A DNA stretch of 64,000 bases from Homarus americanus (Eukaryota; Arthropoda; Malacostraca; Decapoda; Nephropidae). The stretch's first letter is position 1; each line of letters begins with the position of its first letter. The DNA is taken from NCBI RefSeq assembly GCF_018991925.1, contig NW_024756586.1, forward strand, positions 1-64,000. The letters are read 5' to 3'. The notes under the pieces are model-generated. The model was not told where the DNA came from. It saw nothing but the letters and a program-made list of their open reading frames with translations, and searched no databases. The translations under genes and the position numbers were made by a program. Shown here piece after piece: positions 16,635 to 55,000 of the stretch.

Positions 16635-16812
16635 TCTAACCTAACCTAAACTAACCTAGCCTAACCTAACCTAACCTAACCAAACATAACCTAACCAAAC
16701 CTAACCTATCCTAACCTAACCTAACCAAACCTAACCTAACCTAACCAAACCTAACCTAACCAAACATAACCTAACCACCCAAACCAAACCAAACCAAACC
16801 TAACCTAACATG
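16635..16812. repeat. CCTAA array with CCAAA variants
   Basis: About 35 units of CCTAA and CCAAA/CATAA variants on the + strand, the reverse polarity of the array at 13,147-13,500. The following 16,813-17,240 holds nothing I recognise. Confidence 0.85.
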
Positions 16813-17254: not shown

Positions 17255-20200
17255 TGTACCTCCATCAGTCTGTGCCTCCATTAGTCTGTACCTCCATCAG
17301 TCTGTACCTCCATCAGTCTGTACCTCCACCAGTCAGTACCTCCATCAGTCTGTACCTCAACCAGTCTGTACCTCCATCAGTCTGTACCTCCATCAGTCTG
17401 TACCTCCATCAGTCTGTACCTCCATTAGTCTGTACCTCCATTAGTCTGTACCTCCATTAGTCTGTACCTCCATTAGTCTGTACCTCCATTAGTCAGTACC
17501 TCCATCAGTCTGTACCTCCATTAGTCTGTACCTCCACCAGTCTGTACCTCCACCAGTCTGTACCTCCACCCAGTCTGTACCACCACCAGTCTGTACCACC
17601 ACCAGTCAGTACCTACACCAGTCAGTACCTCCACCAGTCTGTACCTCCACCAATCAGTACCTCCACCAGTCTGTACCTCCATCAGTCTGTACCTCCACCA
17701 GTCTGTACCTCCATTGGTCTGTACCTCCATTGGTCTGTACCTCCATCACTCTGTACCTCCATTAGTCTGTACCTCCATTAGTCTGTACCTCCATCAGTCT
17801 GTACCTCCATTGTGCCTCCACCAGTCTGTGCCTCCCGTCGGCCCTCCACCAGTCAGTACCTCCACCAGTCTGTACCTCCACCAATCAGTACCTCCACCAG
17901 TCTGTACCTCCATCAGTCAGTACCTCCATCACTCTGTACCTCCATCAGTCAGTACCTCCATCACTCTGTACCTCCATCAGTCAGTATCTCCACCAGTCTG
18001 TACCTCGACCAGTCTGTACCTCGACCAGTCTGTACCTCCATCAGTCTGTACCTCCACCAGTCAGTATCTCCACCAGTCTGTACCTCGACCAGTCTGTACT
18101 ACCTTCAGTCAGTACCTCCACCAGTCTGTACCTCCACCAGTCTGTACCTCGACCAGTCTGTACCTCCATCACTCTGCCTCCACCAGTCGCACCTCGACCA
18201 GTCTGTACCTCCATCACTCTGTACCTCCACCAGTCTGTACCTCGACCAGTCTGTACCTCGACCAGTCTGTACCTCCATCAGTCAGTACCTCCATCAGTCA
18301 GTACCTCCATTACTCTGTACCTCCATCAGTCAGTACCTCCATCAGTCAGAACCTCCATCAGTCTGTACCTCGACCAGTCTGTACCTCGACCAGTCTGTAC
18401 CTCCATCAGTCAGTACCTCCATCACTCTGTACCTCCTTCAGTCAGTACCTTCACCAGTCTGTGCCTCCACCAGTCTGTACCTCCATCACTCTGTACCTCC
18501 ATCACTCTGTACCTCGACAAGTCTGTACCTCCATCAGTCAGTACCTCCTCACTCTGTACCTCCATCAGTCTACACCTCGACCAGTCTGCACCTCCATCAC
18601 TCTGTCACCTCCATCACTCTGTACCTCCATCAGTCTACACCTCGACCAGTCTGTACCTCCATCACTCTGTACCTCCATCACTTTTACCTCCATCCTCTGT
18701 GCCTCCATCAGTCCACCCCTCGACAGTCTGTACCTATATCCTCTGTACCTCCACCAGTCCCACCTCGACCAGTCTGTCCTCCATCACTCTGTACCTCCAT
18801 CAGTCAGTACCTCCATCACTCTCGTACCTCCATCAGGTCTACACCTCGACCAGTCTGTACCTCCATCACTCTGTACCTCCATCACTCTGTGTCCTCCATC
18901 AGTCTACACCTCGACCAGTCTGTACCTCCATCACTCTGTACCTCCATCACTTTACCTCCATCACTCTGTACCTCCATCAGTCCACACCTCAGCTCTGTAC
19001 CTATATCTCTGTACCTCCACAGTCCCACCTCGACCAGTCTGTACCTCCATCACTCTGTACCTCTCACTCTGTACCTCCATCACTCTGTACCTCCATCAGT
19101 CCACACCTCGACAGTCTGTACCTGTATCACTCTGTGCCTCCACCAGTCACACCTCGACCAGTCTGTACCTCCATCCTCTGTACCTCCATACTCTGTACCT
19201 CCATCAGTCTACACCTCGACCAGTCTGTACCCCCATCTGCGTACCTCCATCACTTTATACCTCCATCACTCTGTACCTCCATCAGTCCACACCTCGACCA
19301 GTCTGTACCTCCATCCTCTGCCTCCATCACTCTGTACCTCCATCCTCTGTACCTCCATCCTCTGCCTCCTATCCCACACCTCGACCAGTCTGCCTCCATC
19401 ACTCTGACCTCACCAGTCCCCTCGACAGTCTGTACCTCCATCACTCTGTCCTCCCAGTCACCTCCGACAGTCACTACCTCATCACTCTCCTCCTCCACCA
19501 GTCCACCTACACACCAGTCCACCTCGACAATCTGTAGCCTCCATCCTCTGTACCTCCAGATCTACCTCTGACCAGTCTGTACCTCCATCACTCTGTGCCT
19601 CCACCAGTCCACCCCTCGACCAGTCACTTCCTCCATCCTCTGTGCCTCACCAGTCCACCTACACCAGTCTGTACCTCCATCCTCTGTGCCTCCATCAGTC
19701 TGTACCTCCAGATCCCACACCTCAGTGATCTGTGCCCTCCATCACTCTGTACCTCCACCAGTCTCCCTCGACCAGTCTGTACCTCCATCCTCTGTACCTC
19801 CCCAGTCACCCCTCGACCAGTCACTACCTCCATCACTGTGCCTCCACCAGTCACACCTACACCAGTCTGTACCTCCATCACTCTGTGCCTCCATCACTCT
19901 GTGCACTCCACCAGTCTCCACACCTCGACCAGTCTGTACCCCCATCACTCTGTACCTCCACCAGTCTACACCTCGGCCAGTCTGTACCTCCATCACTCTT
20001 ACCTCCTCCAGTCCCTCACTCCAGTCATGCATCCCGTCCACTCTGCCTGCACTCTGTCCCTCCACTCTGTGTACCTCCTCCTCTGTACCTCCATCCACCT
20101 GTACCTCCATCACTCTGTACCTCCCCTCTGCACCTCCATCACTCTGTACCTCCATCACTCTGTCCACCACATCCTCTGTCCCTCCATCAGTCTGTACCTC

Positions 20201-23200
20201 CAACACTCTGTACCTCCATCTCTGCGTCCATCACTCTGTACCTCCATCACTCTGTACCTCCATCAGTCCACACACATCGACCACTCTGTACCTCCATCAC
20301 TCTGTACCTCCATCACTCTGTCCCTCCATCCTCTGTCCCTCCCACCACTCTGTACCTCCATCAATCTCATGTCTCCTCCATCACTCTGTGACCTCCATCA
20401 CTCTGTACCTCATCAGTCCACACCTCGACAGTCTGTACCTCTATCACTCTGTACCTCACCACTCTGTCCCTCCACATCCTCTGTACCTCCACCACTCTGT
20501 ACCTCCATCACTCTGTCCCTCCATCCTCTGTCCCTCCATCCTCTGTCCCTCCACCACTCTGTCCCTCCATCACTCTGTACCTCCCACCACTCTGTACCTC
20601 CTCCACTCTGTACCTCCATCACTTTGTCCGTCCATCACTCTGCCCTCCCCCTCTGTACCTCCATCCTCTGCCTCCATCACTCTGTACCTCCATCACTCTG
20701 TACCTGCATCCTCTGTACCTCCACCACTCTGTACCTGCATCACTCTGTCCTCCATCTTTGTCATCCATCACTCTACAGCCTCCACCACTCTGTACCTCCA
20801 TCCTCTGTACCTCCATCACTCTGTACCTCATCACTCTGTACCTCCATCACTCTGTACCTCCACCACTCGCACACCATCACTCTGTACCTGCATCCTCTGT
20901 ACCTGCATCACCTTCCTCCATCACTCTGTACCTCCACCAGTCCACACCTCGACAGTCTGTACCTCCACCACTCTGTACCTCCATCACTCTGTACCTCCAT
21001 CCTCTGTACCTCCATCACTCTGTACCTCCATCACTCTGTACCTCCATCCTCTGCCCTCCATCACTCTCTTCCTCCCCCACTCTGTACCTCCATCACTCTG
21101 CCTGCATCACTCTGTACCTGCATCACTCTGTACCTCGTCACTCTGTACCTCCATCCTCTGTCTCCCACCAGTCTACACCTCGGCCAGTCTGTACCTCCAT
21201 CACTCTGTACCTCCTCAGTCTCCCTCTCCATCACTCTGTACCTCCACCGATCCACACCTCGACCAACAGTACCTCCATCACTCTGTACCTCCTCCAGTCC
21301 ACACCTTGACCAGTCTGTACCACCATCACTCTGTACCTCCATCACTCTGTACCTCCACCAGTCTACCTCGACCAGTCTGTACCTCCATCCTCTGCCTCCA
21401 CCAGTCACACCTAAGACCAGTCTGTACCACCATCACTCTGTACCTCCATCAGTCCCACCTCTCGACCAGTCTGTACCCACCATCACTCTGTACCTCCATC
21501 CAGTCTACACCTCGACCAATCTGTGCCTCCATCCTCTGTGCATCACCAGTCTGTACCTCCACCAGTCTGTCCTCGTACTCTGACCTCCATCACTCTGTAC
21601 CTCCATCACTCTGTACCTCCATCACTCTGCCTCGGCCAGTCTGTACCTCCATCAATCTGTACCTCCATCAGTCCACCCTCGACCAGTCTGTTACCTCCAT
21701 CACTCTGTACCTCCACCAGTCCCACACCTCGACCAGTCTGTACCTCCATCACTCTGTACCTCCTCCAGTCACACAGTCTGTGCCTCCATCCTCAGTACCT
21801 CTCCAGTCCACATCTCGACCATTCTGCCTCCATCACTCAGTACCTCCTCAGTCCACACACTGACCAGTCTGTACCTCCATCACTCTGTGCCTCCACCAGT
21901 CTACACCTCGACCAGTCTGTACCTCCATCACTCTGTACCTCCACCAGTCCTCGACCAGTCAGTACCTCAATCACTCTGTGCCTCGACCAGTCCACACCTC
22001 GACCAGTCTGTACCTCCATCACTCTGTACCTCCACCAGTCCACACCTCACATGTCAGTACCTCCATCACTCTGTACCTCCACCAGTCCACACCTCGACCA
22101 GTCTGTACCTCCATCACTCTGTACCTCCACCACTCTACACCTCGGCCAGTCTGGCACCTCCATCACTCTGTGCCTCCACCAGTCCACACCTCGACCAGTC
22201 TGTACCTCCATCATTCTGTACCTCCATTAGTCACACCTCGACCAGTCAGTACCTCCATCCTCTTGCCTCCATAACTCTGTGCCTCCATCACTTTGTGCCT
22301 CCATCACTCTGTGCCTCCATCACTCTGTACCTCCACCACTCTGTACCTCCCACCACTCCTGTGCCTCCACCAGTCCCACCTCGGCCAGTCTGTACCTCCA
22401 TCACTGACCTCCCATCACTTTGTACCTCCATCACTCTGTGCCTCACCAGTCACCTCGACAGTCTGTACATCCATCACTCTGTGCCTCCATCAGTCACACC
22501 CTCAGCCAGATTGTACCTCCATCACTCTGTGCCTCCTTGATCTACACCTCAGCAGTCTGAATCTCCATCCTCTATACCTCCATCAGTCTGTACCTCCACC
22601 AGTCACACCTCGACCAGTCTGTACCTCCATCACTCTGTACCTCCACCAGTCCCATCTCGACAGTCTGTACCTCCATCCTCTGTACCTCCATCAGTCCACA
22701 CCTCGACCAGTCTGTACCTCCATCACTCTGTGCCTCCATCACTCTGTACCTCCACCAGTCAACACCTCGGTCTGTACCTCCATCACCTGTACCTCCATCA
22801 GTCCACACCTCGACCAGTCTGTGCCTCCATCACTCTACACCTCCTCCAGTCCACCCTCGACCAGTCAGTACCTCCATCACTCTGTCCTCCATCACTCTGT
22901 ACCTCCATCACTCGTGCCTCCCATCACTCAGTACCTCCATCCTCTTACCTCCATCCTCTGTATCTCCACCACTCTCTGTACCTCCATCTCTCTTACCTCC
23001 ATCACTCTGCACCTCCATCATCTGTAGCCTCCTCCTCTGCCTCCACCAGTCTCTCCTCGACCAGTCTGTGCCTCCATCACTCTGTACCTCCATCAGTCTG
23101 TACCTCACCAGACCCACCTCGACCAGTCTGTACCTCCATTACTCTACCTGCCTCATCGTCTGGCCTCCACCAGTCCACACACCTCGACCAGTCTGTCCTC

Positions 23201-26200
23201 CTTCACTGCTACCTCCATGAGTCCACCTCGGCCAGTCTGTACCTCCATCACTCTACACCTCCTCCAGTCCACCTCGACCAGTCTGTACCCCTCCATCACT
23301 CTGTACCTCCATCAGTCTGCACCTCACCAGCCACACCTCGACCAGTCTGTACCTCCATTACTCTGTGCCTCCATCAGTCTGTACCTCCACCAGTCTCCTC
23401 CCGACCAGTCTGTACCTCCTTCACTCTCCTTGTACCTCCATAGTCCACCTCGGCCAGTCTTTGCCTCCATCAGTCTGTGCCTCCCCAGTCCACACCTCGA
23501 CCAGTCTGTCCCACTTCCTTCACTCTGTACCTCCATGAGTCCCTCAGTCTGCCTCCATCAGTCTGTACCTCCCCAGTCCACACCTCGACCAGTCTGCCTC
23601 CTCTTGCCTCACCAGTCCACACCTCGACCATTCTGTACCTCATCACTTTGGCCTCACCAGTCCACCTCTCGACCAGTCTGCCTCCATCACTCTGCCTCCT
23701 CCAGTCAAACCTCATCCAGTCGTGCCTCCATCACTCTGTACCTCCACGAGTCTACACCTGACCAGTCTGTACCTCCATCCTCTGTACCTCCACCAGTCCA
23801 CACCTCGGCCAGTCTGTACCTCCATCACTCTGTACCTCCACCACTCTGTACCTCCATTACTCTGTACCTCCATCCTCTGCCTCCATCACTCTGTACCTCC
23901 ATCACCTTGTACCTCCACCACTCTGTACCTCCATCACTCTGCCTCCATCCTCTGTACCTCCATCACTCTGTACTCCATCAGTCTGTACCTCCATCACACT
24001 ATACCTCCACCACTCTGTACCTCCATCACTCTGTACCTCCATCACTCTGTACCTGCATGACTCTGTACCTCCATCACTATGTACCTCCATCACTCTGTAC
24101 CTCCATCACTCTGTACCTCCACCCCACACCTCGACCAGTCTTACCTCAATCACTCTGTACCTCCTCCTCTGTACCTCCACCAGTCCCACACCTCGACCAG
24201 TCTGTACCTCCACCACTCTGCTACCTCCATCCTCTGTCCTCCATCCTCACCTGTACCTCCATCACTCTGTACCTCCATCAGTCTGTACCTCCATCCCTCT
24301 CTGCCTCCACCCACTCTGTACCTCCATCCTCCGTACCTCCATCACTCTGTACCTGCATCCTCTGTACCTCCATCACTCTGTACCTCCATCCTCTGTCCTC
24401 CATCCTCACCAGTCCAGCCTCGGCCAGTCTGTGCCTCAATCACTCTGTACCTCCATCACTCTGTACCTCACCAGTCACACCTCGTTCAGTCTGCACCTCC
24501 CATCACTCTGTACCTCCTTCCTCCTGTACCTCCATCACTCCTGTACCTCCACAGTCCAGGCCCTCCGGCCAGTCTGTACCTCAATCACTCTGTACCTCCA
24601 TCCTCTGTACCTCCACCAGTCCACACCTCGTTCAGTCTGTACCTCCATCCTCTGTACCTCCATCACTCTGTACCTCCTTCCTCTGTACCTCCATCCTCTG
24701 TGCTCCATCACTCTGTACCTCATCACTCTGTACCTCCATCACTCTGTACCTCTCTCTCTATACCTCACCAGTCCACATCTCGACCCAGTCTGTACCTCCC
24801 ATCCTCTGTACCTCCACCAGTCAACTCGACCAGTCTGTACCTCCATCACTCTGTGCCTCCACCAGTCCCACCTCGACCAGTCTGTCCTCCATCCTCTTTA
24901 CCTCCATCAGTCCACACCTCGACCAGTCTGTTCCTCCATCCTCTGTACCTCCATCACTCTGTACCTCCATCACTCTGTACCTCCATCACTCTGTACCTCA
25001 CAGTCCCACACCTCGACCTGTCTGTACCTCCACTCTGCCTCCATCTTCTTACCTCCACCAGTCCACCACCTCGACCAGTCTGTACCTCAATCACTCTGTG
25101 CCTCCATCAGTCCCACACCTCGACCAGTCTGTACCTCCATCACTCTGTGCTCCATCAGACCACCTCGACCAGTCTGTACCTCCTCGCTCTGTACCTCCAT
25201 CCCTCTGTACCTCCACCAGTCCACACCTCACCACTCTGCACCTCCATCCTCTGTACCTCCATCACTCTGTACCTGCATCACACTGTACCTCCCATCCTCT
25301 GTACCTCCATCACTCTGTACCTCCATCATTCTGTACCTCCTGTGCCTCCACCAGTCCACACCTCGACCAGTCTGTACCTCCATCACTCTGTACCTCCATC
25401 CTCTGCTACCTCCATCACTCTGTACCTCCATCACTCTGCCTCACCAGTTCACACCTCTGACCAGTCTGTACCTCCATCACTCTGTACCCATCACTCTGTA
25501 CCTCCCACCAGTCCCCTCAACCAGTCTGTACCTCCATCACTCTGTACCTCCATCACTCTGTACCTCCATCACTCTGTACCTCCATCACTCTGTACCTCCA
25601 CCAGATCACAGCTGACAGTCTGCCTCCATCACTCTGTACCTTCACCAGTGCACACCCTCGACCGGTCTGTACCTCCACCAGTCACCTCGACCAGTCTGTA
25701 CCTCCATCACTCTGTACCTCCACCAGTCCACACCTCGACCAGTCTGTACCACCATCACTCTGTACCTCCACCAGTCCACCTCTGACCAGTCTGTACCTCC
25801 ATCCTCTGTACCTCCACCAGTCCCCTCGACCAATCTGTACCTCCATCGCTCTGTACCTCCATCACTATGTGCCTCCATCACCCTGTACCTCCACCAGTCC
25901 CCACCTCGGCCAGTCTGTACCTCCATCCTCTGTACCTCACCAGTCCCCAACTCGACCAGTCTGAACCTCCATCACTCTGTACCTCCACCAGTCCACACCT
26001 CGTTCAGTCTGTACCTCCATCACTCTGTCCTCATCACTCTGTACCTCCATCACTCTGTCCCTCCATCACTCTGTACCTCCATAAGTCTGTACCCTAATCA
26101 CTCTGTACCTCCATCTCTCTATACCTCCACCAGTCCACATCTCGACCAGTCTGTACCTCCATCACTCTGTACCTCCAGCAGTCCTCACCTCGACCAGTCT

Positions 26201-29200
26201 GTACCTCCATCACTCTGTACCTCCACCAGTCCACATCTCCGACAGTCTGTACCTCCATCACTCTGTACCTCCACCAGTCCAAACCTCGACCAGTCTGTAC
26301 CTCCATCACTCTGTACCTCCACCAGTCTCACCTCCGACCAGTCTGTACCTCCAACACTCTGTACCTCCCTCAGTCCTCCTCGACCAGTCTGTACCTCCAT
26401 CACTCTGTCACCTTCATCAGTCCACACCTCGACCTGTCTGTCCTCCATCACTCTCTTACCTCCATCAGTCCACACCTCGACCAGTCTGTGCCTCCATCAC
26501 TCTGAACGTCCATCACTCTGTACCTCCACCAGTCCACACCTCGGCCAGTCTGTACCTCCATCACTCTGTACCTCCCTTCAGTCCACCTCGACCAGTCTGT
26601 ACCTCCATCCTCTGCCTCCATCAGTCCACCTCCTCGACCAGTCTGTACCTCCATCGCTCTGTACCTCCATCACTCTGTACCTCACCAGTCCACACCTCCA
26701 CCACTCTGCCTCCATCCTCTGTACCTCCATCACTCTGTACCTGCATCACACTGTGCCTCCATCACTGGCCTCATCACTCTGTACCTCCATCACTCTCTGT
26801 ACCACCACCAGTTCACCTCGACCGGTCTGTACCTCCATCACTCTGCTTCCTCCATCACTCTGTACCTCCACCCTGTACTCAACCAGTCTGTACCTCCATC
26901 ACTCTGTACCTCCATCACTCTGTACCTCCATCACTCTGTACCTCCACCAGATCACAGCTCGACCAGTCTGTCTCCATCCTCTGTTGCCTCCAACAGTGCA
27001 CACCTCAGCCAGTCTGAACCTCCATCCTCTGTACCTCCACAGTCCCACCTCGACCGTCTGTACCTCCATCACTCTGTACCTCCATCACTCTGTACCTCCA
27101 TCAATCCACACCTCGACCAGTCTGTCACGTCTTTCCTTCACCTCCAGATCCACACCTCGACCAGTCTGTACCTCCATCTCCTGCCTCCATCACTCTGTAC
27201 CTCCATCACTCTGTACCTCCATCAATCTGTACCTCCATCCTCTGTACCTCCACCACTCTGCCTCCATCACTCTGTACCTGCATCACTCTGTACCTGCATC
27301 ACTGTGCCTCCATCACTCAGCACTCCATCCTCTGTACCTCCATCACTCTGTATCTCCATCACTCTGTACCTCCACCAGTCCCCACCTCGACCAGTCTGTA
27401 CCTCTATCAATCTGTACCTCCACTAATCCACACCTCGACCAGTCTGTACCTCCATCCTCTGTACCTCCATCACTCTGTACCTCCATCACTCTGTACCTCC
27501 AAGTCCCACACCTCGTCAGTCTGTACCTCCATCCTCTGTAGCTCCACAGTCACCTCGACCAGTCTGAACCTCCATCACTGTGTACCTCCACCAGTCCACA
27601 CCTCGACCAGTCTGTACCTCCATCACTCTGTACCTCCATCACTCTGCCTCCATCACTCTGTACTTCCATCCTCTGTACCTCCATTCCTCTGCACCCAAAC
27701 TCACTCTGTACCTCCATCCTCTGTGCCTCCACCAGTCCACCTCTGACCAGTCTGTACCTCCATCGCTCTGTACCTTCATCCTCTGTACCTCCTCCAGTCC
27801 ACACCTCGACCAGTCTGTACCTCCATCGCTCTGTACCTCCATCGCTCTGTACCTCCTCCTCTGTACCTCCATCCTCTGTACCTCCATCCTCTGTACTTCC
27901 ATCACTCTGTACCTCCATTCCTCTGTACCTAAATCACTCTGTACCTCCATCACTCTGTACCTCCACCAGTCCCCACCTCGACCAGTCTGTGCCTCCATCG
28001 CTCTGTACCTCCATCACTCTGTACCTCCATCACCCTGTACTCCACCAGTCCACACCTCGACCAGTCTGTGCCTCCATCCTCTGTACCTCCACCAGTCCAC
28101 ACCTCGACCAGTCTGAACCTCCATCACTGTGCACCTTCACAGTCCACACCTCGACCAAGTCTGTACCTCCATCACTCTGTACCTCCATCACTCTGTACCT
28201 CCATCACTCTGTGCCTCCCATCACTCTTTACCTCCATTACTCTGTACCTAAATCACTCTGTGCCTCCTCCATCACTCTGTACCTCCACCAGTCCACCACC
28301 TCGACCAGTCTGTACCTCCATCACTCTGCCTCAACAGTCCAAACCTCAGCAGTCTGCCTCCATCCTCTGTACCTCCACCAGTCCCACCTCGACCAGTCTG
28401 TACCTCCATCCTCTGTACCTCCACCAGTCCACCCTCGACAAGTCTGACCTCCATCCTCTGTACCTCCATCACTCTGTACCTCCATCCTCTGTACCTCCAT
28501 CCTCTTTACCTCCATTATTCTGTACCTCATCCTCTGTCCTCCACCAGTCCACCTCGCAAGTCCTCCATCTTCCTCCATCCTGTACCTCCATCACTTACCT
28601 CCATCCTCTGCCTCCATTCCTCTGCCTACATCCTCTTCCTCCACCACTCAGTACCTCCACCAGTCCAACCTCGACAGTCTGTACCTCCATCCTCTGTACC
28701 TCCACCAGTCACCTCGACCAGTCTGTACCTCCATCCTCTGTACCTCCACCAGTCCACACCTCGACCAGTCTGTACCTCCATCACTCTGTACCTCAACCAG
28801 TCCAAACCTCGACCAGTCTGTACCTCCATCACTCTGTACCTCCACCAGTCCACACTCGACCAGTCTGTACCTCCATCACTCTGTGCCTCCACCCCACCTC
28901 ACAAGTCTGTACCTCCTTTCATCCCTCTGTACCTCCATCACTCTGTACCTCCATCACTCTTTACTCCATTATTCTGTACCTAAATCACCTGTACCTCCAC
29001 CAGTCCACACCTCGACAAGTCTGTACCTCCATCACTCTGTACCTCCATCTCTGTACCTCCATCACTCTGTACCTCCATCCTCTGTACCTCCATTCCTCTG
29101 TACCTAAATCACTCTGTTCCCCACCACGTACCTCCACCAGTCCACACCTCGACCAGTCTGTACCTCCATCACTCTGTACCTCCACCAGTCCACACCTCGA

Positions 29201-29285
29201 CCAGTCTGTACCTCCATCACTCTGTACCTCCACCAGTCCACACCTCGGCCAGTCTGTCCTCCATCACTCTGTACATCCATCAGTC
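17255..29285. repeat. 12-kb minisatellite, 16-bp unit
   Basis: Roughly 750 tandem units of the type CCATCAGTCTGTACCT. The left ~1.3 kb is almost purely 16-base units. From about 18.5 kb a three-unit (48-base) higher-order pattern appears, combining a CAGTCCACACCTCGAC unit, a CAGTCTGTACCTCCAT unit and a CACTCTGTACCTCCAC unit. Units with one to three bases missing (TCCTCTG for TCACTCTG, GTCCTCC for GTACCTCC) become common to the right. The unit lacks stop codons in several frames, which creates very long spurious ORFs on both strands. The right edge passes directly into a decayed LINE. Confidence 0.97.
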
Positions 29286-32292: not shown

Positions 32293-32882
32293 TAATGAAC
32301 ATAGTATTGAGTTGGGAGGAATGACTGTGATATTGTAGTTTTTTAACGGAGTTATAACCATTTCTCTGTACTGGTATTTAATAACCATTCCACTGTAACT
32401 AATGAGTATTTCAGATTGCTAATAATTTTGTTCCATATTTTTCCGAGGTACAGATTTTTGTGGTGGTTTGCAGAGAAAGTGAAATAAGTTCAAAGAAATA
32501 CCTTGGAGTTAGGTTATAAAAAAAAGTCTTGTTTAAAGTAAATGATACCTGCAACAATAACTTGAGTGGAGAGTGTGAATAAGGTTCATTAATATTTGAA
32601 GAATTTTGATGTGTAACAATCTGCCCAAATTTTTTTCCGTTGTTAACTCAGTATTACTTACAGACAGTGAGTACATGTTTGGGCAGTGGCACTAGTTTGT
32701 GAAATGTTTCCATCGTGGGAGTGCCGAGTGTTTTAATTCTGAGTTGCTAACAGAAGCATTGCACTATATGCAAAGGTTAAGTGGATGCTAATTCTGTACT
32801 TGTAATATTCTTTAGTTTATGTGTTAGGTAGGCTATACATTCCATTTGCTTAATATCTCGGGGTGTTTTACAGTTCCTTGTA

Positions 32883-32910
32883 CAGTTAACCCTCACTTTA
32901 CGCGGTCCCG
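32883..32910 (+). repeat. Left TIR of the Tigger element
   Basis: CAGTTAACCCTCACTTTACG, matched in reverse complement at the right end (about 38,592-38,617). Confidence 0.9.
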
Positions 32911-33326
32911 CATTCCGCGTTTCCACGTTAACGCGGTGCCTTGCCAGAACCTCACGTGCTCACATTACGCGGTACGTGAACCCCATTATGCGGAGAGTGT
33001 CCGGCGCGACGCTATTTTTAGATTCGCCCCACCCGCCCGCCTGCCTGCCTGCCTCTCTCTCCTCCTCCCTCCGCTTGGGCAAGCGGCGCAGTAAGGTTGC
33101 GCAGTGTGTGTCTTTGTTGCGTTATCACTGACGTCATATGAAGTATCAGACCTGTGATTGGCCATGCATCCCTACCCCCTCTGCTGCTAGCTGTAATTGG
33201 CTTAAAGAATTATGACGTGTCCACCCGGGGGAGGGAGGGAGGGAGGAAAGACGACGCTTGACCTAGCCGCGGCAGTTTCATCCCTCAAGGCCACTCCGTG
33301 TAAACGCGCATCCATTGTTCCGTAAA

Positions 33327-34655
33327 ATGGCTTCCACCGGACCACCACCAAAAAAGAGAGAAACCTTTCCTTACCTGGACCCAGCGGCACTAAACCAAAG
33401 AAGACACGACGTTCCTTAAGCTACGAGGTGAAGTATACCATCATCCAAGAGTTGGAGAAAGGAACAAGGCAGGTTGATTTGGCGCGCCAGCATGGTGTGA
33501 ACGAATCTACGATCCGGACTATAAAGAAGGATTCAGCCAAGATAAAGGAGCACATGAAGATCACAAAGTCTACAGGTGCTTCTATGATCAAGTATTTTCA
33601 CAACCAGGTGCTTCTCAAGACAGAAAAATTACTTGTGAGGTACTTGGTGCGTCAGGCGCGACGGAACATGGCGGTCGACACGCGCTCTGTTAAGGACTAC
33701 GCACGTGAACTGTACATGGCAGTGGCACGAAAGATGGGAATTACAGAGCCCAAACCCTTTAATGCTTCCTCTGGGTGGTTACAGAGGTTTAAGATCCGGA
33801 ACAAGATCACCAATATAAACATTGGTGGTGAAGAAGCGAGTGCTGATCGTGCTGCGGCTCGGGAATTTCCTCCGTTTTTACGTGAGATTATGGAGGAAGG
33901 ACAGTACAGTGACGACCAGGTGTTTAACATGGACGAATCTGGTCTTTTCTGGAAAAAGCTACCTTCCAAGTCCTTCGTTGTGAAGAATGCCAGCAGGATT
34001 CGGGGCCGGAAAATGCAGAAGGAACGCATCACCGTCCTGTTTACCACCAATGCCTCCGGTACCTGTAAGCTCAAGTTATCGGTGATCCACACAGCACGCA
34101 AGCCGCACGCCTACAAAACCATGGACATGACCAAGCTAAATGTCCACTGGCTGACCGCACGTAAGGCGTGGATGTTCTCTACACTGTCCCTCTCCTGGTT
34201 TGATGACTGTTTTGTTCCCGATGTAAAAAAATTCTGTGAGCGACAGAATGTGCCATTCAATATTTTGTTGCTGCTGGACAACGCACCAGGACACTCGCCC
34301 CTACTGTTAGATCGTCACCCCAACGTAAAAGTGGTCTTCCTTCCTCCCAACACTACGTCATTAATCCAGCCCATGGACCAGGAGTTGATTTGCAATGTGA
34401 AAGCTGCATTCTCAACCAAAAAATTCCAGCTCCTGAACGACTACACCAACACCAGGGAAGAGTTGCGTAACCTGAGTGACACCACCACCGATAGCAAGAG
34501 CGAAGAAGATGAGGATCAACAGTTGGCACAGCAAAAAATACTGTTCAAACAATTCTGGAGAATATTTAACATCAAGAAAGCTGTGGACTTCTTGGTGGAG
34601 CCATGGGATCAGCTGTCTATTGCTACAATTCGTCACGCATGGAGACATGTGTTGC
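33327..34655 (+). pseudogene. Tigger transposase, N-terminal and catalytic part
   Basis: The Met at 33,327 (MASTGPPPKKRE) opens the protein, and a one-base shift near 33,370 moves it into the long frame that continues to the insertion point. That frame has the CENP-B-like helix-turn-helix region (LEKGTRQVDLARQHGVNEST), a second DNA-binding segment (SSGWLQRFKIRNKI), and the DDE catalytic domain with MDESGLFW, LLLDNAPGH and LIQPMDQE carrying the three acidic residues. The enzyme cuts and pastes the element at TA sites. The protein is cut at 34,655 in the stretch HAWRHVL by the nested element. Confidence 0.9.
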
Positions 34656-34675
34656 TAGGGTGTGTCATACGGAGG
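34656..34675 (+). repeat. Left TIR of the unassigned transposon
   Basis: TAGGGTGTGTCATACGGAGG; pairs with the right end allowing one substitution and one inserted base. Confidence 0.85.
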
Positions 34676-34993
34676 CGAATTTTTTATTTTGTTTGAAAAA
34701 TCGGCCCATGGTATTAATGATGTAGTTCTATGTGCAGAATCATGTGATATCTTCAGATTTGAAGTTTTCATTTTTTGCTTGGTAAATTTTAACTTGAAAT
34801 CTTATGAAAATTCAGTATTCCCACCCTTTTACCAACACCACTAAATAGCTTATTTAAAGTAAAGTAAATGTATCAGGTTAATTTATTAGGATGAAAATGA
34901 TCCAGAATAGTGAAACGAATGATCTTGACACATTTATTAAATTTAATATTCCTTTAGAAAACAAAATCATCAAATACAAAACCGGTTTTACTA

Positions 34994-36190
34994 CTACGAC
35001 CCGGTGTTGCTGCACACCATAGAGAACATGTCTTTCTTGCTTCTGTTTCTACTCATCACCTCCCTGCTGACCACCTGAGCTCGGATGTAGCCTTCCCTCC
35101 TCTCCTGGCTGTACACGTGACTGCTGGCCTCGCTCACTTGCTGTACACAACGCTCTATACTCTGGGTGTGCGAGGGCCAGGCAGGGACATGCATGGGGTT
35201 GTCCAGGAAAGCTCTGACTTGAACATTGGTGAGGCTGCAGGTAAGAGGGGGCTCACTGCCAGCCTGGATGTTATCCAGATCTATGAGATCAGTGAGGGTC
35301 TTGGTACCTAGATTGACTTCAGGAGTCTTCCTGACCCTGAAGGAATCGTCACCAACTGATTCGTCATGCCCAGATCCTCTCATAAGTCTCATATCCAAGA
35401 TCTTTTTGACTGCCACTCTTCTCTCCTCCTCATCCTTACTGCAGAGCATTGTCTGCAGAACTGCCTCGGGATGAGCATACCAGGAAGATCTCCTCACAGT
35501 CTGCTCCACAATCTGAACAACCTTCCTTGGCTGACTCCTCAGGAGCTCAAGCTGGAAGAGAACATGCCTCGGACCTTCGGAGAACGATGACTTGACCTTG
35601 GTGTTGAACCAATTTGGCAAGTAGACACTCACGATGAATTGGACAATAAGTCTCAGGTTGTGAAGCTGGTTCCCTTTCAGTTTATGATGAGCAACCCAAA
35701 TTCTGCAGAACCTGAGAGCCGTTGTGAGCCACCTAGAATGTGAGACTGGACCTATCTGCAGGTAAGCAAGTCTATCAGGCATGACCCCAGTTTTGATGGC
35801 ACTGCAAATCATGTAACCATAGTACTGGTCAGTACTCAGGTCGTCAATGACAGTATGTGCAAGCTCAACGAGTGGAGGGCCAACTGTGATTTTTTCAAAG
35901 CTCGGATTTATTTCTAACTCAGTGGCAGAGTCCAGCATCTTGCCAAGAGGACCAGACCATCTGTTGTTTGAAAGAGTCTTGCCATCCAGCTCCTGGATCA
36001 GATGTCTGAGTGGCAACTCGTTGGTGTGGAGGTCACAAACAATCCAGACCAGCTTCCTCCCAATCTTCCGCTCTATCCACTGTATGACCCCCCTTGCCAC
36101 CCTGTGTTCGTGTTGGTGCTGTCCCCTCCAATGGCCTGGTAGGCCCTGGTCTACACGCTCCTCTCTCTGAGCCAGTTCAAATGTTATCTG
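34994..36190 (-). pseudogene. Unassigned transposon protein, C-terminal segment
   Basis: The open part is 34,994-36,100 (368 codons). Upstream to about 36,190 the homologous reading changes frame at least twice through single-base length differences, one in the six-C run at about 36,088-36,093. Landmarks are WIVCDLHTNELPLRHLIQEL, LDGKTLSNNRWSGPLGKMLD, a basic middle region, and a C-terminus with HTQSIERCVQQVSEASSHVY and SREVMSRNRSKKD. These blocks look strongly constrained. The whole protein would be roughly 760 residues, long enough for a transposase. Confidence 0.7.
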
Positions 36191-36216
36191 CCACTATCTC
36201 AGCTGGTTTCCTGATG

Positions 36217-36720
36217 TCATCTTTTCTGGAGGAAATGCCACAAATACTTCCCTCCTGGTTCACTGCAGCAGGAGTAGTGTTCCTCCTTCACCATGGCAGG
36301 GAACAACTTGTCAGAATCTCCAACTTTCATGAACACTTTAGTGTCATCCCTTCTCCCATCAAAGAACAAACAATTGATTCCATTTTCTCTTATCCCCTTA
36401 TCAAACTCCTCTTCTAGGTTACTGGCAAGTTTCTCCTGAGCCCTCCTTACTTTGTTATGATCTATCACCAGGTGAACACCATCAGGTGTTATCAAACCAC
36501 CGTCAATCCAGGCAGCTATTGCTATCTCTGCAGTTTCTCTGAGACCAGTGTGGTGTCGCATGCTGGCCAGAGCTATGCTCGGGATATCTTTCCTATTTCG
36601 AATCTTATGCCTGGAAGGTTTGGGATCATTATTTTCTGGGTTAGGGACAAAGTCACCATTCTCCTGGTCAGCACTCGGATCAGCCATGGGGAAGTCATTA
36701 AACTCTGAATCAGCTTGACT
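36217..36720 (-). pseudogene. Unassigned transposon protein, middle segment
   Basis: Continues the protein in another frame: SIALASMRHHTGLRETAEIA, then LITPDGVHLVIDHNKVRRAQ, CLFFDGRRDDTKVFMKVGDS and MVKEEHYSCCSEPGGKYLWH. Stop at 36,217. The acidic residues in CLFFDGRRD and the later GGDST stretch (about 36,110-36,130) are candidates for an RNase H-like catalytic core, but this is a guess. It runs directly from the N-terminal segment with no intron-like sequence between. Confidence 0.65.
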
Positions 36721-36737
36721 CCAATCATCGGCCTTTT

Positions 36738-37412
36738 TTACCTCACCCTGGGCCTTCTCAAGTCTCTTTTCCTCGGCAACTCTTCTCTCTTCTGTCTCTC
36801 TGTGGCAGCCTCCTGTCTCTTGGACTCCAGAATATCTTGGCTAGAAATCATGAGAGCCCCTATACTGCCAGTCTTCTCTCTCTGTGCTTTGACAAATGCC
36901 AGTTCGATCACAGGAATCTTCAGTTCACGCTTGCAAATACAGGAGATGTGGGCCTCGGATTTACAGTCACGATCGCATCCAAACTCAGGACAGAGAACAA
37001 TTGGGCACTTGCAAGTAATTATGTCAAATAACTGGTTCAGTTGCTTGGCAAAGCTGTCCTTAACTGCAAGTTTTCCTCTCCCAAGAGAGATATCTCTTGC
37101 CTTTTCCCAACTGGCTAGCAGTCTCTCACTAATCTTCTTCTGACTTGTTATGACTGGAGGCTTGAACTGAGCGTTAGCCAGAGTATACTGTGCCAAGACA
37201 GCTTTGGTCATATCACTGGCAATGTCTTTGTTTGTGTAAGTTCTTTGGTTCTTTTCACTGATTTGCCTGATTAAAACACCGTATCTCAAAGCATCTCTCA
37301 ATGTAGGCAACTCCGACTTCAGGAGCTCTCTCCCAGACCCAAGATAGTGACTGAGATGGCTGGATTTTGGGTTCCTCGTCCTGACACAAGCAGCCATCGC
37401 AAATATTATCAA
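36738..37412 (-). pseudogene. Unassigned transposon protein, N-terminal segment (Cys-rich)
   Basis: 224 codons; the likely start is the Met at residue 6 (MAACVRTRNPKSSHL). It has a helical region with SELPTLRDALRYGVLIRQIS and then a zinc-binding-like cluster with eight or so Cys/His: CKCPIVLCPEFGCDRDC, AHISCICKRE. It is followed by the conserved-looking IPVIELAFVKAQREK and a charged coiled-coil tail. A one-base shift near 36,790 moves the reading to the next segment, where a frame continues as RVAEEKRLEKAQGEVKKADD. Proteins of this general look are, to my recollection, common in arthropod genomes as uncharacterised, repeat-encoded ORFs, but I cannot name the family. Confidence 0.7.
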
Positions 37413-37660
37413 CTTATAAATGCATCAGAATCTGAAACAGAAAAATATTGTTAGTTGGGTTGTTAAAGAATGAAGTCAGAAAGCAATGTTCACTATTTAA
37501 TTGTAATGCACTAATGCAGCTGTACGTTAGATTTTCGATAAATTTCACGCTAAAATTTACCTAGCAAAAGGTTGCAAAATATTGAAACTGAAATTATTTT
37601 CTGTTTATATACACAAAAATCTACCAAAAAAGTGATGGGCCATTAGTTTTAGCTGATCTT

Positions 37661-37680
37661 CCCTCCTATGAGACACCCTA
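37661..37680 (-). repeat. Right TIR of the unassigned transposon
   Basis: Reverse complement TAGGGTGTCTCATAGGAGGG, followed by the second copy of the 9-bp duplication. Confidence 0.85.
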
Positions 37681-37689
37681 ATGTGTTGC

Positions 37690-38264
37690 ATGGAATACCA
37701 GGTGAGAGGAGGAGTCAATCTGTGACTGGTGAGGTTCAGAATGTTGCAGTAGCAGTGGACCTTGCCAGAGAAGCTGCGCAGACTGTTACAGTTCCAGGCT
37801 TCTCCGAGACCACCAACGACGACATCCTGGAGGTGATCAGAGATCCTGAAGTGACTGCCGACGAGATGTTGGAAGAAGAACACGTCAGTGAAGAGGAGGA
37901 AGAAGGTGCGTCATTCTCCGAAGAACACAATTTAAGTCATAGTGATATTAAGGGTGCCATGGAGTGTGCAGAGAAGATGAAGTCCTTCCTTTCCCGCGAC
38001 AATGACGATGACCGCTATGAAGTCTTCCATACCCGGCTGGTGCAGGCTATGGAGCCCTACATCAAGGTGTATCACGACAACATCAACGCCAGCCGTCAGC
38101 AAAGCATAACAGATTTCTTCGCCCGCAACCCACCACAGCCAGCCCAAGCCAGTGATAGTGGCAGTGAAGATGACTTTGAGGGATTTGTCAGGGAAGCCCT
38201 GACAACTGTAAGTGACAGTGATGGTGATTCACCTAGTAATGGTGATTCACCTGAGGGCCAGTAA
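37690..38264 (+). pseudogene. Tigger transposase, C-terminal part
   Basis: This frame resumes at HGIPGERR, directly after one copy of the 9-bp duplication, in the frame of the N-terminal part. It carries the acidic tail typical of Tigger proteins (SEEEEEGASFSEEHNLS), a MKSFLSRDNDDDRYEVFHTR stretch and the ending ITDFFARNPP. The tail is common in pogo-type transposases and is not catalytic. Confidence 0.88.
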
Positions 38265-38591
38265 TCTGCCCTCTGCCTCGGAACCAGCCTCCATCCCCGT
38301 ATGCCGACCCATCTCTTCTACTACCGTAAGTGTTACACCAAATTTTTAGTTTTCTAACCAAACCTTTATTTTTCCTATGTTAACCTTTATCTTTCCTAAC
38401 CTAACCTCTTCTATATTACTTGTTTTTTCATACCATCATAAAGTTAAGATAAAATTTTTACTACAACATAGTTGTGTGTCGTCAAAAAGTGGAATTTGGG
38501 GATCGGCCTGGACTCCATTTCAATTAATCCCATATGTTATGTTATTCACTTTACGAGTTTCTCGCTTTCCGCGGTACCCTCCGGGTTACAT

Positions 38592-38617
38592 TAACCGCTT
38601 AAAGTGAGGGTTAACTG
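38592..38617 (-). repeat. Right TIR of the Tigger element
   Basis: Reverse complement of the left TIR with very few differences, followed by the TA target duplication. Confidence 0.9.
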
Positions 38618-38952
38618 TATTAATATTTCTATGTATATGCTATAATTTTAAAGTGTATTTTAATCAGGTGCTAACGGTTCATTATTTGGTGAAACGTATG
38701 TTATGTGAACTCTAATGCCAGTATACTTTCAGAATACAGTATTATATATGTGAGGACCTTATGGTGATACGGTATATGGAAAGTGTTATACAAGTGTATG
38801 GACCCAGAATTGTGAGTACAGAAATTTGTGAAGTGTTCACACAGTGTTGCACCATACAGAGTTTGTGAATAGCAAAGTGTCTCAGTGTATTTTTCATGCA
38901 ATAATATTATCTTTTGGGAGATTAATAATCTGAACAGTATTTTGAATAGTTA

Positions 38953-47725: not shown

Positions 47726-50014
47726 TTATTGAATTCTGTTTTTTTCATGCACAAATTTATGACGTTTGAGAAGACCGCTGCGGGAGAAACATTTCCCACA
47801 TTCTTCACATTCAAACTCCTTCACACCACTGTGTCCAAGAATGTGTCTCTTGAGAGTACTCTTCTGGGAGAAACATTTCCCACATTCTTCACATTCAAAC
47901 TCCTTCACACCACTGTGTCCAAGAATGTGTCTCTTGAGAGTACTCTTCTGAGAGAAACATTTCCCACATTCCTCACATTCAAACTCCACACCACTGTGTC
48001 CAAGAATGTGTCTCTTGAGAGTACTCTTCTGGGAGAAACATTTCCCACATTCTTCACATTCAAACTCCTTCACACCACTGTGTCCAAGAATGTGTGTCGT
48101 GAAAGTACTCTTCCGGGAGAAACATTTCCCACATTCCTCACATTCAAACTCCTTTATACCATTGTGGACAAGAATGTGTTTCTTGAGATCACCCTTCCGG
48201 GAGAAACATTTCCCACATTCCTCACATTCAAACTGCTTTATACCACTGTGTCCAAGAATGTGTGTCTTGAGATCACCCTTCCAGGAGAAACATTTCCCAC
48301 ATTCCTCACATTCAAACTCCTTTATACCATTGTGGAAAAGAATGTGTTTCTTGAGATCACCCTTCCGGGAGAAACATTTCCCACATTCCTCACATTCAAA
48401 CTCCTTTATACCACTGTGTCCAAGAATGTGTGTCGTGAGAGTACTCTTCCGGGAGAAACATTTCCCACATTCCTCACATTCAAACTGCTTTATACCACTG
48501 TGTCCAAGAATGTGTGTCTTGAGATCACCCTTCCGGGAGAAACATTTCCCACATTCCTCACATTCAAACTCCTTCACACCATTGTGTACAAGAATGTGTG
48601 TCTTGAGAGTACTCTTGTGGGAGAAACATTTCCCACATTCCTCACATTCAAACTCCTTCACACCACTGTGTCCAAGAATGTGTGTCTTGAGAGTACTCTT
48701 GTGGGAGAAACATTTCCCACATTCCTCACATTCAAACTCCTTTCACCACTGTGTCCAAGAATGTGTGTCTTGAGAGTACTCTTCCGGGAGAAACATTTCC
48801 CACATTCCTCACATTCAAACTCCTTCACACCACATGTACAAGAATGTGTCTCTTGAGAGCACCCTTATGGGAGAAACATTTCCCACATTCCTCACATTCA
48901 AACTCCTTCACACCATTGTGTATGAATGTGTGTCTTGAGAGTACTCTTTTGGGGAGAAACATTTCCCACATTCCTCACATTCAAACTCCTTCACACCACT
49001 GTGTCCAAGAATGTGTGACTTGAGATTACTCTTCCGGGAGAAACATTTCCCACATTCCTCACATTCAAACTCCTTCACACCATTGTGTACAAGAATGTGT
49101 CTCTTGAGAGCACTCTTGTGGGAGAAACATTTCCCACATTCCTCACATTCAAACTCCTTCACACCATTGTGTACAAGAATGTGTGTCTTGAGAGTACTCT
49201 TGTGGGAGAAACATTTCCCACATTCCTCACATTCAAACTCCTTCACACCACTGTGTCCAAGAATGTGTGACTTGAGATTACTCTTCCGGGAGAAACATTT
49301 CCCACATTCCTCACATTCAAACTCCTTTATACCATTGTGGTCAAGAATGTGTGTCTTGAGATTACTCTTCTGGGAGAAACATTTCCCACATTCCTCACAT
49401 TCAAACTCCTTCACACCATTGTGTACAAGAATGTGTGTCTTGAGAGTACCCTTGTGGGAGAAACATTTCCCACATTCCTCACATTCAAACTCCTTCACAC
49501 CACTGTGTCCAAGAATGTGTGACTTGAGATTACTCTTCCAGGAGAAACATTTCCCACATTCCTCACATTCAAACTCCTTCACACCATTGTGTACAAGAAT
49601 GTGTGTCTTGAGAGTACTCTTGTGGGAGAAACGTTTCCCACATTCCTCACATTCAAACTCCTTCACACCATTGTGTACAAGAATGTGTGTCTTGAGAGTA
49701 CTCTTGTGGGAGAAACATTTCCCACATTCCTCACATTCAAACTCCTTCACACCATTGTGTACAAGAATGTGTGTCTTGAGAGTACTCTTGTGGGAGAAAC
49801 ATTTCCCACATTCCTCACATTCAAACTCCTTCACACCATTGTGTACAAGAATGTGTGTCTTGAGAGTACTCTTGTGGGAGAAACATTTCCCACATTCCTC
49901 ACATTCAAACTCCTTCACACCACTGTGTCCAAGAATGTGTGTCTTGAGAGTAGACTTGAAGCCAAACTGTTTGCCACATTCCTCACAGGAGAACTTTTTA
50001 TCTCTGCTTGACAT
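47726..50014 (-). CDS. Tandem C2H2 zinc-finger protein, about 27 finger units, three frame breaks
   Basis: Starts at MSSRDKKFSCEECGK (50,014) and runs to a TAA at 47,726 as back-to-back 28-residue (84-base) C2H2 fingers of the type FECEECGKCFS-x-KSTLKTHILVH with linker HNGVKE/HSGVKE. I count 13 units to about 48,910, then two, one and eleven more after frame changes near 48,945, 48,835 and 48,735, each a one- or two-base length change. C2H2 arrays bind DNA; here the specificity positions (SHKSTLKT, SRKGDLKK, SQKSTLKR, SWKSNLKS) fall into a few recurrent types. The linker lacks the classic TGEKPY. An AATAAA overlaps the stop codon. No KRAB, BTB or ZAD domain is seen. A TTTCAG before ATACTG at about 50,062 may be the acceptor of an intron leading to a 5' exon. 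If the frame breaks are consensus errors the gene is intact; otherwise the first product is a 13-finger protein. Confidence 0.82.
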
Positions 50015-52032: not shown

Positions 52033-55000
52033 ACTGGCTCTGTTACGTTCTGTTGGCATGTACTGGCTCTCTGTTATGTACTGTTGGCACTGTGGGCATG
52101 TACTGGCTCTCTGTTACGTACTGTTGGCACTGTGGGCATGTACTGGCTCTCTGTTACGTACTGTTGGCACTGCTGGTACGTACTGGCTCTTATGTACTGT
52201 TGGCACTGTTGGCATGTAATTTGTTACATACCGTTGGTAACTGTGAGGATGTAATTGGCTCTCTGTTACGTACTGTTGGCAACTGTGGGCATGTACTGGC
52301 TCTCTATTACGCACTGCTGGCATGTACTGGCTCTCTGTTATGTACTGTTGGCACTGCTGGCATGTACTGGTTCTCTGTTACGTACTGTTGGCACTGTTGG
52401 CATGTACTGGTTCTCTTGTTACGTACCGTTGGCATGTACTGGCTCTCTGTTATGCAATTGCTGGCACTGCTGGCATGTACTGGCTCTCTGTTACGTACTG
52501 TTGGCACTGTTGGCATGTACTGGCTCTGTTATGTACTGCTGGCACCGTTGGCATGTACTGGCTCTGTTACATACCGTTGGCAACTGTGGGCATGTACTGG
52601 CCTTCGTTACGTACTGTTGGCAACTGTGGGCATGTACTCGCTCTGTTACGCACTGCTGGCAACCGTGGGCATGTACTGGCTCTCTGTTACATACCGTTGG
52701 CAACTGTAAGTATGTACTGGCTCTCTTACGTACTGTTGGGTAACCAGGGTATAAAAATACTGGCTCTCTGTTACGTACTGTTGGCACTGTGGTCATGTAC
52801 TGGCTCTCTGTTAGGTACTGTTGGCACCGTGTTCATGTACTGGCTCTCTGTTAGTACTGCTGGCACTGTGGACATGTACTGGCTCTGTTACGCGTACTCA
52901 TTGCTGGCCACCGTGTACTGGCTCTCTGTTACGTACTGTTGGCCACCGTGAGCATGTACTGGCTCTCTGTTACGTACTGCTGGCACTGTGGGCATGTACT
53001 GGCTCTCTGTTACGCACTGCTGGCAACTGTGGAGCATGTACTGGCTCTACGTACTGTTGGCCACCGTGAGCATGTACTGGCTCTCTGTTAGGTACTGCTG
53101 GCCACTGTGAGCATGTACTGGCTCTGTTACGTACTGTTGGCCACTGTGAGCATGTACTGGCTCTGTTAGGCACTTGCTGGGCCACTCGTGAGCATGTACT
53201 GGCTCCCTCTGTTTCACGCACTGCTGGGCAACTGTGGTCATGTACTGCCTCTGTTACGCAATTGTTGGCACTGTGGCATGTACTGGCCTCTGTTACGTAC
53301 TGTTGGCAACCGTGAGCATGTACTGGCTCTCTGTTAGGTACTGCTACCGTGAGCATGGTACGCTCCTCTGTTACGTACCACTGCTGCACCGTGGGCATGT
53401 ACTGGCCTCTGTTACGTACCGTTGGCCACTGTGGTCACATAATCACTGGGCTCTCTGTTACGCACTGCTGGCCACTGGGTGAGCATGTACTGGCTTCTCT
53501 GTTACGTACTGTTGGCCACTGTGAGCATGTACTGGCTCTGTTACGTACTGTTGGCCACTGTGGGCATGTACTGGCTCTCTGTTATACCAAGTTGGCCACT
53601 GTGACATGTACTGGCTCTCTGTTACGTACTGTTGGCCACTGAGAGCATGTACTGGCTCTCTTGTTACGTACTGTTGGCCACTTCGTGAGCATGTGTACTG
53701 GCTCTCTCTGTTACGTACCGTTGGCCACCGTGGGGCATGTATCGCCTCTGTTACGTACTGTTGGCCACTGTGAGCATGTACTGGCTGTCTGTTACGCAAT
53801 TGCTGGCAACTGTGTTCATGTACTGGCTCTGTTACGTGCAGACTGCTGCACTCGTAAGTATGTACTGGCTCTCTCTGTTACGTACTGTTGGCACTGTGTT
53901 CATGTACTGGCTCTCTACAGTACTGTTGGCAACTATGGCATGTAATGGCTCTCTGTTACGTACTAAGTTGGCAACTGTGAGCATGTACTGGCTCTCTGTT
54001 AGGTACTGTTGGCAACTATGGGCATGTACTGGCTCTCGTTACGTACTGTTGGCAACTGTGGGCATGTACTGGCTCTGTTACGTACTGCTGGCACTGTGGT
54101 CATGTACTGGCTCTCTGTTACGTACTGCTGGCACTGTGTTCATGTACTGGCTCTGTTACGTACTGTTGGCACTGTGTTCCGCGCCGCTCACATGTACTGT
54201 TGGCACTGTGTTCATGTACTGGCTCTCTGTTACGTACTGTTGGCACTGTAGGCATGTACTGGCTCTATGTTACGTACTGTTGGCACTGTGAAAGCATGTA
54301 CTGGCCTTCTGTTACGTACTGTTGGCACTGTGAGCATGTACTGGCTCTCTCTTGTTACGTACTGCTGGCACTGTGGTCATGTACTGGCTCTCTGTTACGT
54401 GTACTGCTGGCACTGTGGTCATGTACTGGCTCTCTGTTACGTACTGTTGCCACTGTGGTCATGTACTGGCTCTCTGTTACGTACTGCTGGCACTGTGGTC
54501 ATGTACTGGTTCTCTGTTACGTACTGTTGGGCACTGTGTTCATGTAATTGGCTCTCTGTTACGCAATTGCTAAGTAATTTGTGGTCATGTACTGGCTCTC
54601 TGTTACGTACTGTTGGCACTGTGTTCATGTAATACTGGCTCTCTGTTACGTACTGTTGGCACTGTGGCCGGGCGTACTGGCTCTCTGTTACGTACTGTTG
54701 GCAACTGTGTTCATGTAATTGTCTCTGTTACGTACCGTTGGCAACCGTGGGCATGTACTGCTCTCTGTTACGTACTGTTGGCAACTGTAAGTGGCATGTA
54801 CTGGCTCTCTTGTTACATACTGTTGGCACTGTGGTCATGTACTGGCTCTCTTGTTACGTACTGTTACCGTGGTCATCATGTACTGGCTCTGTTACGTACT
54901 GTTGGCAACTGTGGTCATGTACTGGCTCTTGTTACGTACTGCTGGCACTGTGGTCATGTACTGCCTCTGTTACGTACTGTTGGCAGTGTGGTCACACCGG

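Follow-up and report, generated by a model that had tools for sequence, protein, structure and literature searches.

An inactivated transposon nested in a Tigger element of Homarus americanus carries a broken gene for a putative CxxH-group DDE transposase with a Hermes-like predicted fold

The hAT, P, MuDR, Kolobok and Dada transposons form the CxxH group, in which a [C/D]xxH motif lies between the second Asp and the Glu of the DDE transposase; in the P element it stands at the insertion boundary (PMC8230255). hAT elements are 2.5-5 kb long with terminal inverted repeats (TIRs) of 10-25 bp (PMC3942097), and target-site duplications (TSDs) of 5, 6, 7 and 8 bp are on record for them (PMC12730594). 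Dada lacks TIRs, duplicates 6-7 bp and inserts into small RNA genes (PMC3706591), and Kolobok makes TTAA-specific 4-bp duplications (PMC9587614). Duplications are 4-10 bp in IS256/MuDR and 9 or 10 bp in AcademH (PMC10045372), and 8 or 9 bp in Merlin, which has 5'-GG termini (PMC8101967). All articles are cited by PubMed Central (PMC) identifier, for what their available portions state. Described here is a transposon at 34656-37680 of a 64,000-nucleotide stretch of lobster DNA (Homarus americanus contig NW_024756586.1, positions 1 to 64,000, forward strand; the window), inserted into a Tigger transposon. The best explanation, given a probability of about 0.88, is an inactivated copy of a cut-and-paste element whose transposase would be a CxxH-group DDE enzyme with a Hermes-like predicted fold and no credible match to a described transposase family in the libraries searched (Pfam, NCBIfam, PHROGs and PDB).

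The nested element is a DNA transposon with proven ends, and its terminal features are as follows.

34656-37680, minus (strand of the transposase gene): nested cut-and-paste transposon, 3025 bp
34647-34655, no strand: left TSD, 9 bp, ATGTGTTGC
37681-37689, no strand: right TSD, 9 bp, ATGTGTTGC
34656-34679, plus: left TIR, 24 nucleotides, TAGGGTGTGTCATACGGAGGCGAA
37657-37680, minus: right TIR, 24 nucleotides, read from the end, TAGGGTGTCTCATAGGAGGGAAGA
34773-34811, plus: left subterminal inverted repeat, 39 nucleotides, likely an extra transposase binding site
37531-37569, minus: right subterminal inverted repeat, 39 nucleotides, partner of 34773-34811

The element starts with TAGGGTGTGTCATA and ends, read from the opposite side, with TAGGGTGTCTCATA; TAGGGTGTnTCATA is common to both ends, which begin TAGGG, a start compatible with the hAT end consensus. 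Local alignment of the outer 24 nucleotides scored 30, where the best of 2000 first-order Markov resamplings reached 22, and global alignment of the outer 170 nucleotides scored 79 against a resampled mean of -2.3 (standard deviation=12.3, maximum 47, n=1000). The 39-nucleotide repeats are placed symmetrically, about 112-156 nucleotides inward of both ends. Read symmetrically, the ends leave a TSD of 9 bases; an 8-base reading gives unlike ends. Joining the flanks with one TSD copy produces a single open Tigger frame, 33326-38264, that runs through to its stop. The initial annotation, which had placed a transposon with matched TIRs at exactly these coordinates, flanked by a perfect 9-bp duplication and interrupting a Tigger frame that becomes continuous on its removal, is borne out on each of these points. 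The TIR pattern (two or fewer mismatches) matched three times in the window against 2.73 expected, at the two element ends and one 2-mismatch site, and so revealed no further copy there. No second copy with flanking DNA was found in viral contigs (queried with the family alignment, two family proteins, P0178 and P0140, and the TIR pattern), prokaryote genome contigs, phage records or the window, the contig scans relying on a few short peptide patterns with sensitivity limited accordingly; TSD length and TAGGG ends are known from one copy at one insertion site.

The host element was recognised by its inverted ends and Pfam matches.

32883-38617, plus: interrupted host Tigger (pogo/Tc1-mariner group)
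33326-34655, plus: Tigger transposase frame, part 1 (stop-to-stop), running through the left TSD
37690-38264, plus: Tigger transposase frame, part 2, continuous with part 1 once the flanks are joined

Without the insert and the second TSD copy, the Tigger is 2701 bp long. Its ends are 26-nucleotide inverted repeats (96%, flanking TA included) at 32881-32906 and 38594-38619, and a 20-nucleotide stretch from the right end, with up to three mismatches, was found twice where 0.01 matches were expected by chance. The transposase matches DDE_1, HTH_Tnp_Tc5 and CENP-B_N in Pfam, the part before the insertion matching DDE_1 at 1.3e-30. Because inverted ends and TA are found on both sides, the nesting is complete, and because the frame is open to its stop apart from the insertion, the Tigger was probably young when it was hit.

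The transposase gene of the nested element occupies three open pieces on the minus strand that overlap or adjoin, and was aligned to P0140, an open member of nearly the same family.

34994-37397, minus: broken transposase gene, from tblastn and frameshift-tolerant alignment to P0140 (801 residues)
36933-37013, minus: Cys/His cluster of the N-terminal domain (P0140 residues 129-155; 7 Cys, 1 His), from conservation and the domain model
36358-36360, minus: predicted first catalytic Asp (P0140 D347), motif FDGRxDxT, strand b1, from conservation and model
36121-36123, minus: predicted second catalytic Asp (P0140 D426), motif GGDSTNxNTGW, from conservation and model
36026-36037, minus: CxxH motif (P0140 C455-H458, CDLH), just past strand b5, where the helical insertion begins
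35729-35731, minus: Trp of the insertion domain (P0140 W557), motif HSRWLTT, a candidate counterpart of Hermes W319
35153-35155, minus: predicted catalytic Glu (P0140 E749), motif HTQSxER, from conservation and model

The three pieces are 87%, 79% and 89% identical to P0140, and 725 of 802 columns are identical in the frameshift-tolerant alignment. Full length is about 800 residues, somewhat above the 760 or so of the initial estimate. Relative to P0140 the window copy has four frameshifts, three of them within about 150 bp, and one inserted in-frame stop, while both Asp residues, the CxxH motif and the Glu are all retained. The Tigger frame crosses the insertion without stop or frameshift, whereas the nested gene has these five defects. 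The copy may have been defective at insertion and moved by the enzyme of another copy, or the small indels may be local assembly errors.

The predicted structure contains the RNase H-like DDE core for which the initial annotation proposed to look, with conserved D, D and E modelled at the canonical places and a large helical insertion separating b5 from the last helix, giving a Hermes-like catalytic fold in the model. D347, D426 and E749 form the predicted catalytic triad, as conservation and the model both support, and with [C/D]xxH between the second D and the E the modelled transposase falls in the CxxH group. A fold search with this structure returned Hermes (hAT) as its top match, with six entries, and the P element as the second Foldseek match; Hermes aligned over 347 residues against 263 for ISCth4 (MuDR/IS256), 84 more, and scored about 4 Z units higher. 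The spacing from the second D to the E is 323 residues, and in Hermes it is about 324. The N-terminal 200 residues gave a confident domain model (predicted local distance difference test, pLDDT, 88.4; predicted template modelling score, pTM, 0.81) that matched no solved structure among PDB folds. Its Cys/His cluster, C-x-C-x4-C-x4-C-x3-C-x4-H-x2-C-x-C with the His in 66 of 78 rows, would plausibly bind zinc and recognise DNA.

Three protein searches (E <= 0.001) returned 167, 85 and 99 relatives, of which the best 120 of the 167 were inspected. By sequence, the family is large and consists of mostly unnamed animal proteins, in keeping with the uncharacterised arthropod open reading frames mentioned in the initial annotation. 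Among the matches listed, the named sources are at least 12 animal species in five phyla: Scylla paramamosain, Chionoecetes opilio, Amphibalanus amphitrite, Araneus ventricosus, Daktulosphaira vitifoliae, Helobdella robusta, Biomphalaria pfeifferi, Hydra vulgaris, Myxine glutinosa, Mantella aurantiaca, Aldrovandia affinis and Chaenocephalus aceratus. At least two different members occur in 6 of the 12, which fits the expectation for a transposon. Source names among these matches read 'uncharacterized' or 'hypothetical' except for P0084 (THAP9-like helix-turn-helix) and the spider proteins P0181 (DUF659) and P0185 (DUF4371). The family signature is FDGRxDxT ... GGDSTNxNTGWxGG ... CxLHTNELPLRHL ... 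HSRWLTT ... HTQSxERxVKxVTEA. In an alignment of 112 members C455 is conserved in 109 and H458 in all 112, W557 of the RW motif is invariant in the 108 rows with a residue there, and the residue two after the first Asp is R in 98 rows, K in 12 and aromatic in none of 110.

Library searches agree with the initial annotation, in which the protein could be tied to no described transposase. Pfam gave no family at E <= 1 for the three window pieces, no match at E <= 10 for P0140, and scattered weak matches for 26 family members, with no hAT or Mutator-type domain among the best 25 of 33 families (the remaining 8 being matched by one member each, at E of 0.25 or more by table order). Ten relatives and ten further proteins (two repeats) gave weak, scattered matches, plus Tnp_P_element in P0084. 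At the sequence level hATC (PF05699) was found neither in P0140 (E <= 10), nor in the full Pfam lists of the two ten-protein sets, nor among the best 25 of the 33 families; THAP and Mutator-type domains were likewise absent from the window pieces, the relatives' full lists and those best 25. The DUF659 and DUF4371 labels, which come from UniProt, were not reproduced by Pfam at E <= 10. NCBIfam returned a single chance-level match to the window pieces, PHROGs nothing credible for three relatives, and the viral fold library nothing at E <= 0.001; PDB sequence searches gave nothing credible, and the 112-member profile did not match Hermes at E <= 10. The Tnp_P_element match in P0084 (1.5e-6, residues 251-303) was rejected as evidence on the family because it falls beyond the region of homology; it occurs in a single leech gene model. 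P0084 (Helobdella robusta) carries this P-element helix-turn-helix domain C-terminal to the new transposase and is probably a fused or nested gene model.

A tree was built from the C-terminal 363 residues of 35 rows of our choosing (the window copy, 17 named relatives and 17 unnamed; the named rows P0071, P0084, P0167, P0169, P0173, P0179, P0180, P0182 and P0185 were left out). The window copy groups with P0140 and two mud-crab (Scylla) proteins (support 100/100); a wider group of eight takes in leech proteins and P0127 as well (99/94). Of the snow-crab proteins, one is placed on the vertebrate and Hydra side with weak support (81/80) and another with a barnacle protein (100/100), so that crustaceans carry several lineages side by side and the branching does not simply mirror that of the hosts. 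Horizontal transfer may have played a part.

A mechanism can be proposed. The N-terminal Cys/His domain would bind the 24-nucleotide TIRs and the 39-nucleotide subterminal repeats at both ends, and D347, D426 and E749, judging from conservation and the model, would hold metal ions and nick the DNA beside TAGGG. The second strand would then be cut via a hairpin on the flanking DNA, assisted by CxxH and perhaps W557, on the model of hAT (Hermes and Kat1). In Kat1, mutation of CxxH abolishes hairpins while nicks persist, and the counterpart of Hermes W319 is dispensable for hairpins (PMC4763223). The freed ends would join the target nine bases apart, gap repair leaving the 9-bp duplication seen at this one copy. 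The present copy landed in the Tigger element and is no longer able to produce its enzyme.

How the element should be classified is less certain. Tentatively, and at slightly under even odds, the family may be an animal-wide superfamily of its own within the CxxH group and sister to hAT, its transposases being some 800 residues long with an N-terminal Cys/His DNA-binding domain of a kind not described before, and its other marks being TAGGG ends, 9-bp TSDs and the signature motif. The 'unrecognised superfamily' of the initial annotation stands as a DNA transposon with no described sequence match, its rank as a separate superfamily not being established. A real possibility, with the odds somewhat against it, is that the element belongs to a very divergent hAT branch whose duplication has lengthened to 9 bp and whose N-terminal domain has been exchanged. 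The six Hermes entries heading the fold comparison, the CxxH motif, the RW motif with its invariant Trp (W557), the 323-residue spacing from D2 to E and the 3-kb size with short TIRs all favour it, as do the variety of TSD lengths on record for hAT, the UniProt labels of P0181 and P0185, and the occurrence of DUF4371 in the BuT2 hAT transposase (PMC3942097). It has against it that Pfam confirms neither label and finds no hAT domain within the scope given above, that the 112-member profile misses Hermes, and that the TSD of the one copy has 9 bases. Moreover, none of 110 rows has an aromatic residue at the second position past the first Asp, where Kat1 has W312 (the Asp being D310) and Hermes W182, a Trp that matters for cleavage or hairpins (PMC4763223). 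Fold, CxxH and Trp speak for hAT, and Pfam, Hermes profile, aromatic residue and TSD against it; we therefore say that the element most likely works like hAT and do not file it as hAT.

It is also possible, though less likely than not, that Repbase or Dfam already lists the family, whether under an established or a provisional name, and that only the present link is new. Copies occur in many sequenced animals, and those two collections lie outside the comparison; on the other hand, none of the listed matches from the open literature, judged by title and the beginning of the abstract and with most subscription journals outside, describes the family, and the source names are uninformative apart from the three exceptions above. 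A MuDR/IS256-type element (MULE) is suggested by the 9-bp duplication, which is within the range of that group, and is improbable given the higher score and longer alignment of Hermes over ISCth4 (MuDR itself being outside the structure and sequence comparison) and the lack of Mutator-type families in the Pfam results within the scope given above. A last reading, for which the single copy might be cited, would have the duplication and the similar ends surround a captured host gene by chance; it is already refuted for practical purposes by nine identical flanking bases, a TIR score above all 2000 resamplings, a second inverted repeat placed symmetrically inside, and an excision that gives back an uninterrupted frame and a 2.7-kb Tigger with its TA and TIRs.

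Elsewhere in the window, tandem arrays at 17255-29285, 52050-58284 and 58352-64000 (units of about 16, 40 and 20 bp, respectively) make up more than one third of the sequence, and the long multi-frame open reading frames in the first two are probably spurious. Arthropod telomere-type TTAGG/CTAAC arrays lie inside the window at 13181-13461 and 16636-16809; together with the nearest named relatives of the transposase, they would point to a decapod crustacean as host. An 84-bp tandem array at 47782-49952 contains two minus-strand open reading frames for C2H2 zinc fingers, with 12 zf-C2H2 stretches each. A Gypsy-like polyprotein piece (3123-5657, minus) has Pfam matches to reverse transcriptase, RNase H, H2C2 and integrase core, and open reading frames at 1570-2343 and 11152-11784 contain a GIY-YIG nuclease domain and a reverse transcriptase fragment, respectively, perhaps mobile-element pieces.

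The family occurs in crabs, a barnacle, a spider, phylloxera, a leech, a snail, hydra, hagfish, fishes and a frog, and because it is mostly unnamed in records its genes read 'uncharacterized protein'. The ends, duplication length, predicted triad and fold allow genome projects to identify it. The hAT/P/MuDR group, in which the mechanisms of Hermes and the P element are known, gains a branch with this family, and transposition can be tested directly on its open members, which have about 790-800 residues.

Among described systems, Kolobok resembles the element in its CxxH group and zinc-finger elaborations and is set apart by its description, the duplication here being the 9-bp ATGTGTTGC. Merlin and AcademH share the 9-bp duplication, AcademH by description alone; unlike Merlin, the ends here begin TAGGG and no DDE_Tnp_IS1595 domain was seen. 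ISCth4, of MuDR/IS256, gave a shorter alignment and lower score than Hermes, and no Mutator Pfam match was seen. Dada, a C/DxxH-group transposase without plain match to others that was declared a superfamily, is a precedent; its description sets it apart, as the present element has TIRs and its target is a Tigger coding region, and the evidence is of the same kind but from one insertion site here against those of several families for Dada (PMC3706591). The P element (DmTNP, THAP9) has its insertion at the same RNase H fold position, a duplication of about 8 bp and the end consensus YARNG (PMC2820524), which TAGGG fits. From hAT the element differs in having no hATC or other hAT Pfam match, a 9-bp rather than 5-8-bp duplication in the one copy, FDGRxDxT where hAT has an aromatic residue at the second position past the first D, and, at the N-terminus, a 7-Cys/1-His domain in which no BED finger is recognisable. 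It is like hAT, as represented by Hermes and Kat1, in a predicted DDE RNase H core interrupted after b5, ahead of the last helix, by a large helical insertion, in the CxxH motif and the RW with invariant Trp in the insertion (a candidate counterpart of W319), and in an element of about 3 kb with short TIRs and subterminal repeats.
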